A DNA stretch of 44,430 bases, taken from an uncultured Thiotrichaceae bacterium. GTDB taxonomy: Bacteria; Pseudomonadota; Gammaproteobacteria; Thiotrichales; Thiotrichaceae. Below are positions 31,180 to 34,489 of this stretch, piece after piece. The notes beneath the pieces were generated by a model. It saw only the letters and a list, made by a program, of their open reading frames with translations. It had not been told where the DNA came from and did not search any database. Position 1 is the first letter of the stretch; each line of letters starts with the position of its first letter. The DNA is taken from the NCBI GenBank assembly GCA_902727985.1, contig CACVAY010000010.1:1-44430 (forward strand), written 5' to 3'. Position numbers and translations under genes: made by a program.

Positions 31180-31254
31180 CATTTCTCAAAATGTAGATAA
31201 ATAACTGAAAGTCTGAGTAATATGAAATTACTCAAGAAACATGTCTAAAAGCTA

Positions 31255-31283
31255 TTGACCTGCCAATATCAAGAATGTAATAT
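31255..31283 (+). promoter_or_regulatory. Sigma70 promoter of tRNA-Asn
   Basis: TTGACC (31255-31260) and TAATAT (31278-31283) are separated by exactly 17 bases. A GC-rich discriminator (CCCGC) follows, as expected for stringently controlled tRNA promoters. The tRNA starts 30 bases after the -10 box. Confidence 0.75.
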
Positions 31284-31312
31284 TCCCGCTCTCTCAAACG
31301 AGAGTCAACTAT

Positions 31313-31388
31313 TCCTCAGTAGCTCAGTTGGTAGAGCAGTTGACTGTTAATCAATTGGTCGCAAGTTCGAGTCTTGCCTGAGGAGCCA
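31313..31388 (+). tRNA. tRNA-Asn (anticodon GTT)
   Basis: 76 nt with encoded CCA. The acceptor arms TCCTCAG / CTGAGGA pair fully, the discriminator is G, the D-arm contains AGCTCAGTTGGTAGAGC, the anticodon GTT is at 31346-31348 in the loop CTGTTAA, and the T-arm has GTTCGAGTC. The gene ends at 31388 and is followed by a rho-independent terminator. Confidence 0.98.
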
Positions 31389-31393
31389 AATTT

Positions 31394-31428
31394 AAAGGGC
31401 TGTAGCGTTTTTCGTTGCAGCCCTTTTT
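31394..31428 (+). terminator. Rho-independent terminator after tRNA-Asn
   Basis: The stem AAAGGGCTG (31394-31402) / CAGCCCTTT (31418-31426) is followed by a five-T tail ending at 31428. Confidence 0.92.
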
Positions 31429-31450
31429 CGTTGGGTTTACATAAACACAT

Positions 31451-31491
31451 AAAAAAGCCTCGACTATGCGAGTCCCCTTCAAGTGAAGGCT
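31451..31491 (-). terminator. Branched terminator-like structure for minus-strand transcripts
   Basis: On the minus strand, AGCCT (31491-31487) pairs with AGGCT (31460-31456). Between them lie two small hairpins, CTTC-ACTT-GAAG and GACT-CGCAT-AGTC, and a T6 run follows the outer stem. It would end transcripts arriving from the brnTA side and faces the tRNA terminator. Confidence 0.6.
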
Positions 31492-31721
31492 ATCAAATTA
31501 TTCATAATTCCAGATATTTAATCTACTATCTTGCTTGTCTAGCTCTGAAGAAAGACTGTAGTCAGCAGATTCTTGTTTACCCTGTTTGAGATACCAAATG
31601 TAGACTGCAATAGTTTAACATCGCCATAAGCCCACCTTTGATGCTCACCTTGAATAAATCACACTGCCAACCGTTAAGGTTTACGGTTTTTTGGGAGCTA
31701 TCCTAGACAGTGCAAACCCTT
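31492..31721. other. Non-coding stretch with a possible gene remnant
   Basis: On the minus strand, 31614-31498 is open for 39 codons (including YIWYLKQGKQESADYSL, ending IWNYE) but has no start codon with a ribosome-binding site, and an in-frame stop lies just upstream. It may be the tail of a decayed gene. A weak hairpin AACCGT/ACGGTT followed by T6 (31669-31692, plus strand) is also present. I see nothing else. Confidence 0.3.
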
Positions 31722-32015
31722 TTAGCCGTTAGCGACATCTTTTTTATCTGTTAGGTGTTCTTGCATGTATTCACGTAAAGCATGATTAATATTGCTTTGG
31801 TACTTACCACCTTGAGACTTAAACCATGCCACAACATCAGAGTCCAGTCTGATTGTTACAGGTTGTTTTGTTGGTTTGTAGAAAGGATTGCTAACGGCTT
31901 TTTCAAAGAACTCATCCGTCAATGGTGGAATATCGCTAAAATCAATATCTTCATCTGACATATTTGCCAGCGCTTCAAGGTTCTTCATTTGTTTATTTGT
32001 AAGTTTCTGATTCAT
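31722..32015 (-). CDS. brnA: BrnA-type antitoxin (ribbon-helix-helix)
   Basis: 97 residues from the ATG at 32015, chosen because AAGGA lies just upstream and the longer frame to 32105 only shadows brnT. The acidic N-terminal half (MSDEDIDFSDIPPLTDEFFE) can mask the toxin. The C-terminal half PVTIRLDSDVVAWFKSQGG, then KYQSNINHALREYM, is the BrnA ribbon-helix-helix DNA-binding segment. It overlaps brnT by 23 bases. Family knowledge: BrnA neutralises BrnT and represses the shared promoter. Confidence 0.92.
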   Translation of the reverse strand: MNQKLTNKQMKNLEALANMSDEDIDFSDIPPLTDEFFEKAVSNPFYKPTKQPVTIRLDSDVVAWFKSQGGKYQSNINHALREYMQEHLTDKKDVANG

Positions 32016-32274
32016 AATTCCTTCTTTCTTTTTTATCAGCCTTTCTCGCCGACATAATACGGATAACCTCATTATCGCTATCATCATAATTAAGGGTATG
32101 AGCAATTAGAACAACCATTATTCCGATGGTTTGCCAGCGTTCCTCTCCATTCTCTATTCTGTCTTGTGTGAATAGCGCATCAGGATCATAAAAAACAAGG
32201 CTTGCGGTATCAACATCAATATTATGTTTGTGAATATTTGAGAGGTTTTTGTCCTCATCCCATGTAAAGATCAT
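31993..32274 (-). CDS. brnT: BrnT-type toxin ribonuclease
   Basis: 93 residues. The pattern MIFTWDEDKNLSNIHKHNID, then ASLVFYDPDAL, then NGEERWQTIG and EVIRIMSARKADKKERRNYE, is the complete BrnT family (RelE-like fold RNase) signature. These segments include the N-terminal WDE-K-NxxKH and the catalytic-region R-I-x-SARKA motifs. No truncation is seen, so the module is likely functional. It is first in the operon, followed by overlapping brnA, the usual toxin-antitoxin order for this family. A palindrome sits just upstream of its start. Confidence 0.94.
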   Translation of the reverse strand: MIFTWDEDKNLSNIHKHNIDVDTASLVFYDPDALFTQDRIENGEERWQTIGIMVVLIAHTLNYDDSDNEVIRIMSARKADKKERRNYESETYK

Positions 32275-32281
32275 AGTCTAT

Positions 32282-32291
32282 TGTACGTACA
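32282..32291. promoter_or_regulatory. Palindrome TGTACGTACA, likely BrnA operator
   Basis: A perfect 10-bp palindrome ends 7 bases before the brnT start, overlapping the position of the ribosome-binding site or early promoter. Ribbon-helix-helix antitoxins typically bind such short palindromes to autoregulate. The assignment is by position and symmetry only. Confidence 0.55.
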
Positions 32292-32320
32292 TTTTTGTAA
32301 TTAAAAAAGAAACGAAATAC

Positions 32321-32452
32321 TTAACCGTTATCTTGTTTCTTAATTGGCAAAACCTTTGCTGTGTCTTTGCCACATCTTTGCTTAACTCTAGCCCAGCCGT
32401 TTTTAGGGTAAGTAATATATCCGGTAACAGTTGACCCTACAATACGGTACAT
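32321..32452 (-). CDS. Possible 43-residue small ORF or remnant upstream of brnT
   Basis: MYRIVGSTVTGYITYPKNGW continues with ARVKQRCGKDTAKVLPIKKQ and DNG, then stop. The frame stays open about 20 codons further upstream without an ATG. No ribosome-binding site precedes the ATG. The composition (many Lys/Arg, Gly, Tyr) looks protein-like. It may be the end of a decayed gene; I do not recognise a family. Confidence 0.25.
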   Translation of the reverse strand: MYRIVGSTVTGYITYPKNGWARVKQRCGKDTAKVLPIKKQDNG

Positions 32453-32676
32453 TTTGCACACACTTAACTCATCCCCAGTGATCAATCCCTGAGTTGATGG
32501 TTGCTTCCTGTGGTTAATTATTTATAGCGTGTTTAACAAGAACAATAGATGAGCTTGGTTCGTTTATCTGATGTATCAGGTCTGGAATAGGAATAGAAAT
32601 TAGTTGTGTAAGACAGAGGGGAAATAGTGTGCTGCCAGAAGGTGGGGGGGGGTATATTTCTTTGGGGAAGGTGAGT
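32453..32676. other. Intergenic sequence with a nine-G tract
   Basis: I see no gene. A run of nine G lies at 32644-32652, 25 bases before the hairpin that follows the small gene at 32718. Confidence 0.5.
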
Positions 32677-32705
32677 GAGCTATGCGAGTAAAAGCCGCAT
32701 AGCTC
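32677..32705 (-). terminator. Perfect 10-bp stem-loop after the 53-residue gene
   Basis: GAGCTATGCG and CGCATAGCTC are exact inverted copies with a 9-nt loop, 12 bases beyond the minus-strand stop at 32718. No U-run follows, so a factor-assisted terminator or mRNA-stabilising structure is possible. Confidence 0.5.
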
Positions 32706-32717
32706 TAGAAGTGCGTC

Positions 32718-32879
32718 CTACGGAGCTTTAGGCTTTGTGTACTCAACAGTCTTCTGGAATGATTTCCATTTGATGTCGTAGCCAACGAACCCTTTCTCAT
32801 TTGCTTCTTTTTGAGTCGTTGTGTAGTACTCAGTTGTGCCTTCAGGAACTTTAGGTCTAGTGCTAGGTTGTCCGCTCAT
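32718..32879 (-). CDS. 53-residue orphan small protein
   Basis: The protein begins MSGQPSTRPKVPEGTTEYYT, continues with TTQKEANEKGFVGYDIKWKS, and ends FQKTVEYTKPKAP. A textbook ribosome-binding site (GAGGAGAAG) stands about 8 bases before the ATG, and a strong hairpin follows the stop, so I believe it is a real gene although it is very short. It is hydrophilic with no membrane segment, no Cys and high Lys/Thr/Tyr content. I recognise no family. It lies between brnTA and hemL in a low-density region next to tRNA-Asn. Confidence 0.6.
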   Translation of the reverse strand: MSGQPSTRPKVPEGTTEYYTTTQKEANEKGFVGYDIKWKSFQKTVEYTKPKAP

Positions 32880-33165
32880 TATTGCTTCTCCTCAGGTTCT
32901 ATATCGAGTCGGCCACTACACCAAAACAGTAGTTACAAACTGACTCAAAAATCCGATTATGTCATTTTTTTTTCTAGAAATATATATAACCTTAGGGAGA
33001 GATATATCAAGAATAGGGGGAAGGTAGGGTTTGCAAGGAGTCTCGATGTTTACGTTGAAATATGTATCTCAACTTTTCTAAGGTTCGGGTCACGCAAAAT
33101 AAGGTTTGTAACGTAACACGAGTAGATTGAAGGAGAGTGTAATAGCGGGCTTTCCTAGGGAGAAA
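32880..33165. other. AT-rich intergenic region
   Basis: I see no gene. It contains an A/T tract (nine T at about 32962-32971, then TATATATA) and presumably the promoter of the small gene at 32879 on the minus strand. Confidence 0.5.
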
Positions 33166-33195
33166 CAGTATGCCCCACGGAACAGGAGCATACTG
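33163..33195 (-). terminator. Rho-independent terminator of hemL
   Basis: On the minus strand, CAGTATGCTCC pairs with GGGGCATACTG (one G-U) around an 8-nt loop, followed by TTTCT. It begins 11 bases beyond the hemL stop. Confidence 0.85.
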
Positions 33196-33205
33196 AGAAT
33201 GTTAG

Positions 33206-34489
33206 TTAAGCAAGGGTTGCGAATACTTTGTTGGCAGCATGTACTGTTGCTTCGATATCTGCTTCAGTGTGAGCGGTTGATACAAAACCTGCTTCGTAGG
33301 CTGATGGTGCGAGATAGACACCTTCACGCAGCATACCGTGGAAGAAGGCATTGAAGCGTTCAATGTTGCAAGCTGTCACTTGGGCGAAGTTCTCAACGGA
33401 GTCTGCATCGGTAAAAAAGAAACCAAACATTCCACCCACCTGATTCGTGGTGAAGTCGATGCCATTGTGGTCGGCAACGGTTTGTAGGCCTTCTAATAAC
33501 TGTGTGGTTTTCTGAGTAAGGCCTTCATAGAAGCCTTCTGCAGAAATAATCTCTAAGGTTGCTAGTCCAGCAGCCATGGCAACAGGGTTGCCTGAAAGCG
33601 TCCCCGCTTGGTAAACAGGGCCCGTAGGAGAGAGGTGATTCATAATATCTTTACGTCCCCCAAAAGCACCTACTGGCATGCCGCCGCCCATAATTTTACC
33701 AAGGGTGGTGATATCAGGCATAACATTGTAATGCTCTTGAGCGCCGCCTCGTGCTACACGAAAACCCGTCATTACTTCATCGAAGATGAGAACTGACTCA
33801 TGCTTAGTACATACTTCGCGTAGTGTTTCGAGGAACCCTTCAACAGGTGGAATGCAGTTCATATTGCCGGAAACAGGCTCAACGATAATACAAGCAATTT
33901 GGTCGCCAATATCAGTGAAGAGATCACGGACTTGTTGTGCATTATTGTAGTCAAGCGTGATCGTATGTTCTGCTAGTGACGCGGGTACGCCAGGTGAATT
34001 TGGTTCACCAAAAGTCAAAGCGCCTGATCCTGCTTTCACCAGTAGTGAATCGCCATGGCCATGATAGCCGCCTTCGAATTTTACAATCTTGTCACGGTTA
34101 GTGAAACCACGTGCGAGTCGGATAGCTGACATCGTAGCCTCTGTGCCAGAATTCACCATACGCACCATTTCAATCGAAGGCACGATCTCACAAATGCGTT
34201 GTGCAATGGTGATTTCGATTTCAGTCGGTGCGCCATAGCTTAAACCACGCGCTGCCGCCTCCTGAACGGCTTGAATAATATCTGGATGAGAATGTCCTGC
34301 AATCATGGGCCCCCATGAGCCAACGTAGTCAATATATTTTTTACCATCCGCATCAAATAAATAAGCATCTTTTGCGCTTTCGATGAATACAGGCGTGCCG
34401 CCTACGCTTTTAAAGGCGCGAACAGGGGAGTTAACACCACCAGGGATGCATTTTTGGGCTTTATCAAAAAGGACTTCAGATTGGGACAT
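33206..34489 (-). CDS. hemL: Glutamate-1-semialdehyde 2,1-aminomutase
   Basis: 427 residues, the usual length. This PLP enzyme converts glutamate-1-semialdehyde to 5-aminolevulinate for heme (C5 pathway). The N-terminus is [20 protein letters not shown], the PLP lysine Lys265 is in [17 protein letters not shown], and the sequence also includes [11 protein letters not shown] and [16 protein letters not shown], all diagnostic. The start ATG is at 34489. The ribosome-binding site is weak (AAGAATTC). A good terminator follows. It lies 104 bases after thiE on the same strand; hemL-thiE adjacency is common in gammaproteobacteria. Confidence 0.98.

Follow-up and report, generated by a model that had tools for sequence, protein, structure and literature searches.

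The locus examined here raises two linked questions, namely whether a frame of only 53 codons in the genome of an uncultured Thiotrichaceae bacterium is a genuine gene and, if so, in which cellular system its product may act. The frame lies in a stretch of 44,430 nucleotides (the window, meaning the whole stretch of DNA that was analysed) and had been described in the initial annotation as an orphan with strong translation signals. The open reading frame, its ATG and its ribosome-binding site are indeed present on the minus strand, and the 53-residue translation is the sequence quoted in that annotation (Table 1). The ribosome-binding site, GAGGAGAAG, has GAGGAG as its core, the core ending 8 nt ahead of the ATG, and a Shine-Dalgarno-like word is found at -17 to -4 in 113 of the 123 family members. 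The stem-loop after the stop codon, previously given as 10 bp, has 11 pairs in the fold (61 nt, -18.5 kcal/mol, z -4.15, 0 of 200 shuffles equally stable); it contains no T run, does not appear in the terminator scan list, and is possibly a 3' end or a terminator lacking a T run.

Table 1. Coordinates of the features discussed; positions refer to the window unless a locus (L) is named.
Feature	Position	Strand	Basis
53-aa protein-coding gene, ATG to stop	32718..32879	-	ORF list, relatives, family alignment, dN/dS
Ribosome-binding site GAGGAGAAG	32885..32893	-	read from sequence
Stem-loop 3' of the stop codon, 11 pairs, 7-nt loop	32677..32705	-	fold
Leader hairpin type B: outer stem, 4-nt 5'-side bulge (TGTA), inner stem, loop	32906..32946	-	alignment A6
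tRNA-Asn	31313-31388		
int-alpA RNA	31648-31713	-	RF02996
116-aa protein	L185:6234-6581	-	
FKBP/SlyD-like isomerase	L182:7477-7980	-	
278-368 aa TPR-like protein	L182:6618-7451	-	by eye
278-368 aa TPR-like protein	L186:7113-7946	+	by eye
278-368 aa TPR-like protein	L188:8056-9159	+	by eye
278-368 aa TPR-like protein	L200:9840-10901	-	by eye

The description as an orphan turned out to be wrong, relatives being present in Alpha-, Beta- and Gammaproteobacteria. An initial protein search of 56 other genomes recovered 11 relatives besides the window; one of them (G035, locus L012, E 0.096) was later dropped as unrelated because it lacks the positions conserved in the family. By profile search, the gene is found in 37 of 369 genomes of the window's class and in 15 of 63 genomes of the window's taxonomic family, with one copy per carrier genome among the matches listed, and 371 of 387 pattern matches in a contig collection were confirmed. 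The best 80 of these 371 (hereafter the collection loci) carry record titles that name mostly metagenome-assembled genomes of Alpha-, Beta- and Gammaproteobacteria; one title names Gemmatimonadota, and some go no further than Proteobacteria or Pseudomonadota. Two contigs (L014 and L047) bear an apr locus under the title Bordetella parapertussis, and these titles are probably wrong. Altogether, the 154 loci with a match, several of which are the same place twice, correspond to 123 distinct proteins of 52-57 aa, save one cut by a contig end (L080, 48 aa). The alignment of 122 rows, which omits L080 and repeats of identical proteins, has six invariant columns and 14 more conserved at 90% or above, and dN/dS lies between 0.05 and 0.41 in the 25 closest non-overlapping pairs, indicating that the family is under purifying selection. 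Conservation of the frame in 123 distinct proteins, together with this range of dN/dS, places it beyond chance, and it is a genuine small coding gene; a conserved frame with synonymous bias is precisely what the initial annotation had proposed to look for among relatives.

That annotation had also assigned the protein to no recognised family, and here it was right: Pfam, NCBIfam and PHROGs gave nothing. Over 122 family members NCBIfam returned no match and Pfam a single stray one (E 0.0064), and solved structures gave no homologue at E up to 1. Cysteine is absent from all 123 proteins. The AlphaFold2 model (pLDDT 75.7, pTM 0.36) contains two short strands only and is too weak for a fold search. 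Phage or plasmid cargo was rejected, as the relative at L008 had no tblastn match among phages and plasmids at E up to 0.01. No description of the protein was found in the mostly open-access literature covered. The family is widespread, without a name in the family libraries, solved structures or literature found, and extends a known system, as its neighbourhood makes clear.

Clustering of the neighbours in the 80 collection loci (best 80 of 371) reveals a recurrent order: a membrane protein of about 280 aa, AprB, AprA, a 116-aa protein, an FKBP-type isomerase of about 170 aa and the 53-aa gene, often with a Sat gene nearby. AprA and AprB form dissimilatory APS reductase, with which sulfur oxidisers convert sulfite to APS in the cytoplasm. 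Within the DNA covered, at least one gene of the apr locus lies near the 53-aa gene in 79 of these 80 loci, the exception being L089, and by profiles built from the 80 loci themselves the isomerase is present in 79, the 116-aa protein in 75, AprA in 71, AprB in 56, the AprM-like protein in 51 and Sat in 44. The apr genes are on the same strand as the 53-aa gene in 63 of the 79 loci and on the opposite strand in 16. One representative each of AprB and Sat scores above the NCBIfam cut-offs, and AprA was identified by TIGR02061 in the genome searches. Within the window's taxonomic family, apr genes lie beside the 53-aa gene in 7 of 15 stretches, and in the other 8, the window included, no apr gene was found within the stretch examined. 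Linkage to the apr locus, as a property of the family, is close to certain in our judgement.

The membrane protein between Sat and AprB is probably AprM, since the order in L081 (Allochromatium humboldtianum; Sat, a membrane-like protein of 280 aa, AprB, AprA) matches the sat-aprMBA order of A. vinosum in the accessible part of PMC3779200. Curated models gave no AprM match for it, with QmoC and TcuB far below cut-off, and one member shows four hydrophobic stretches as against the five helices reported for AprM. The AprB sequences inspected read RCDGCG or close to it, and, compared by eye with the accessible text of PMC2211403, they lack the KGXD/EK/R loop after Cys13 given there for lineage II AprB. 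Absence of this loop points to lineage I for the apr loci around the 53-aa gene, in distinction from the lineage II APS reductase with QmoABC, which is the same enzyme with the same reaction. The accessible descriptions of the A. vinosum locus contain Sat, AprM, AprB and AprA only, so that the 116-aa, isomerase and 53-aa genes are additional here; one table of PMC11267869 lists Alvin_1122 merely as a conserved hypothetical protein.

Some further features of these loci deserve mention. The 116-aa protein and its homologues adjoin aprA and have no Pfam or NCBIfam match, the isomerase and its homologues match SlyD-type NCBIfam models below cut-off, and in 10 of 20 stretches a protein of 278-368 aa, repeat-rich and TPR-like by eye, is encoded between the genes for the isomerase and the 53-aa protein.

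The association extends to whole genomes. AprA (TIGR02061, E up to 1e-20) is present in 111 of the 369 genomes of the class and falls into two score groups, of which the high-scoring one (37 genomes) was defined as above 1060 bits, a line drawn after the scores had been seen. Of the 37 class genomes that carry the 53-aa gene, 28 have a full-length high-scoring AprA and three more a partial one. In three genomes (G078, G218 and G272) the apr locus ends at a contig edge beside the gene. The 116-aa protein, present in 54 of the 369 genomes, among them every one of the 37 with high-scoring AprA, is found in 35 of the 37 carriers vs 19 of 332 non-carriers (Fisher p 8.5e-33, the genomes not being independent), the two exceptions among the carriers being G122 and the window's genome. 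In the window's taxonomic family, AprA or fragments of the apr locus are present in 14 of 15 carriers. Since the gene is absent from 9 of the 37 class genomes with high-scoring AprA, and from 12 more such genomes of the window's taxonomic family, it is dispensable for APS reductase in many lineages. In an AprA tree of 50 rows (the 30 best loci of the class and the 20 best of the window's taxonomic family, out of more AprA found), the gene accompanies 27 of 30 rows of one clade and 4 of 20 of the other, and its presence requires 6 changes vs a shuffled mean of 15.6 (0 of 500 as low). Presence of the gene therefore tracks the AprA phylogeny, imperfectly.

The window's own genome stands against a simple apr story, as it keeps the gene and its leader with no apr locus found. 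In this assembly (99.39% complete), AprA was not found at E 1e-20, nor AprB or the 116-aa protein at E 1e-5, and the only FKBP match is a generic one of 60 bits. It does have dsrA (582 bits, cut-off 393), and its Dsr system presumably runs oxidatively. The window copy departs from the family at four positions where at least 85% of rows agree, a number exceeded (five) in only 1 of 122 rows, and its divergence from the nearest relative, G001, is dN 0.24 and dS 1.07. The apr genes may be missing from the assembly, or may have been lost, or the 53-aa protein may serve another partner as well.

In many members the sequence upstream of the gene is conserved as well. A bulged hairpin (type B) precedes it in 21 members, mostly Gammaproteobacteria, and 13 of its 15 consensus pairs, read from alignment A6, are formed in the window. 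These 21 rows were picked by eye from upstream stretches, so covariation was counted on a chosen set: 87.5% of cells are paired, 12 of 15 pairs changed on both sides, cells with both-side changes number 35 vs 14.8 in shuffles, and the score is 0.464 vs 0.327 (0 of 500 as high). Among the 11 rows outside the window's taxonomic family the covariation is weaker, with both-side changes in 8 pairs and 11 cells (6.1 in shuffles), a score reached by 3 of 500 shuffles and pair types by 115 of 500. Because the rows had been chosen by eye, a model from these 11 rows (R2) was run beside one from all 21 rows, window copy included (R1). R1 recovers its own training copy in the window (32903-32949, 40.5 bits), and R2 scores 20.1 bits there (E 0.0059); R2 matches 11 of the 15 stretches from the window's taxonomic family, in each case upstream of the 53-aa gene, and nothing further at E up to 1 in the 203 kb searched; it does not find the leader in L188, L192, L193 and L194. 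Taken alone, the window hairpin folds only modestly better than shuffles (z -1.17) and the wider stretch around it worse (z +1.23).

Across the 369 genomes, R1 gives 10 matches at E < 1e-5, all of them training sequences or copies of these and all just upstream of the 53-aa gene; in the ten genomes where this distance was measured, the modelled leader ends 20-23 nt short of the start codon. Eleven further genomes match at E 0.0026-0.1 only, and the seven weaker matches inspected precede unrelated frames or no listed frame. In 96 further loci, R1 has no match upstream of other apr-locus genes at E up to 1; seven of its eight matches are known leaders of the 53-aa gene, of which L158 and L160 are the copies from G253 and G352. 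A riboswitch serving many genes is accordingly not supported, matches at E < 1e-5 occurring at this gene only. The leader shares with the cis-regulatory RNAs of Rfam a short structured 5' region near the start codon, and a known RNA family was rejected: in 20 loci searched at E up to 1, none exceeded its gathering score at the leader, the lone match there being Thr_leader in L117 (E 0.49, 27.6 vs a cut-off of 55 bits), on the gene's strand and overlapping both leader and gene. The inverted repeat, which lies near the presumed start of transcription and occurs at the 53-aa gene only, could also be a protein-binding DNA operator. Operators usually conserve sequence, however, whereas here the stem sequence varies while pairing stays, G-U pairs included, and the 4-nt bulge is one-sided, making an operator a very improbable explanation.

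Another conserved leader (type A) was observed upstream of the gene in L095, L096, L104-L107, L113, L196, L197 and L200, reading GTCAG...GGGAGG...CTGAC...CCTCCC followed by an AGGAG site, with a possible pseudoknot. An H-type pseudoknot can form in 10 of 11 picked type A leaders, and in 13 of 123 upstream stretches vs 2-3 in five rounds of crude shuffling, with few compensatory changes and a stem that MAFFT aligns poorly. The evidence for a type A pseudoknot leader is no more than suggestive.

The immediate setting in the window admits other readings of the gene. The initial annotation had placed it in an accessory patch with brnTA and tRNA-Asn, and these neighbours were confirmed: BrnA and BrnT are above the Pfam cut-off, a tRNA-Asn is present, and brnT lies about 440 bp from the 53-aa gene on the same strand. 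The patch is nevertheless incidental to the gene's function, because other family members sit elsewhere. An int-alpA RNA (41.3 bits, gathering score 35.8) between tRNA-Asn and brnA suggests the remnant of an integrated element, and no direct repeats of at least 14 nt were found in 31250-33300. From the proximity of brnT on the same strand the frame might be taken for a third part of the toxin-antitoxin module, or else for a chance frame, but the family is conserved at other sites, brnTA is not among its commonest neighbours and the gene is under purifying selection, so that both ideas were rejected and their probability is negligible; nor did Pfam, NCBIfam or PHROGs give any match linking the protein to BrnT or BrnA. 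The same surroundings would suit a recent remnant of an apr locus since lost, decaying and kept near an integrated element beside tRNA-Asn, and the lack of detected apr genes in this genome, the four departures from well-conserved positions and the nearby int-alpA RNA and brnTA all favour it. Against decay, the frame, start, ribosome-binding site and leader are all intact, and dN is far below dS in the comparison with G001; we consider a relic improbable.

Somewhat less improbable, though still unlikely, is a broader role in sulfur oxidation, for instance in sulfite handling or as a regulator, with the gene merely co-selected with apr and its product working with dsr in the window's genome. 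The presence of dsrA beside undetected apr genes in that genome, the frequent separation of the gene from apr under a leader of its own, and its opposite orientation in 16 of 79 loci are consistent with such a role. It is opposed by the near-exclusive co-occurrence with the 116-aa protein of the apr locus (35 of 37) and by the distribution of dsrA, found in 47 of 63 genomes of the window's taxonomic family, far more than the 15 of 63 with the 53-aa gene. The reading we lean towards, with moderate confidence, is that the 53-aa protein would assist the AprM-type (lineage I) APS reductase as an accessory or assembly protein, expressed from its own leader. Its small size, lack of cysteine and two short strands at moderate confidence suit a peptide that folds on a partner, and a neighbour resembling peptidyl-prolyl isomerases fits enzyme assembly or maturation, which together favour an accessory or assembly role.

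According to this proposal for an APS reductase accessory protein, the protein would often be translated from a separate mRNA that carries a structured leader, whose hairpin may set the stability or translation of that mRNA. The product, most likely an extended peptide folding on its partner, would bind AprBA or AprBA-AprM and may aid assembly, stability or membrane docking of the enzyme. More speculatively, and with a low probability, it may be a new small subunit of the AprM-type enzyme or a factor dedicated to its assembly. Two or more unrelated leader RNAs, each specific to this gene, would then control its expression, namely the bulged hairpin and, in other families of Gammaproteobacteria, a possible H-type pseudoknot, the CCTCCC strand of which could in addition cover the ribosome-binding site; the protein might bind its own leader, or a metabolite of sulfur oxidation might be sensed. 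As aprAB mutants of A. vinosum oxidise sulfite at wild-type rates, according to the accessible part of PMC3368242, a phenotype of the 53-aa gene may be hard to see.

Oxidation of sulfite by APS reductase is a main exit of sulfur oxidation. The 53-aa, 116-aa and FKBP-type isomerase genes are concrete candidates for study of the assembly of the AprM-type enzyme and of its electron transfer to the membrane, and the covarying leader would count as a new RNA element dedicated to a single small gene.
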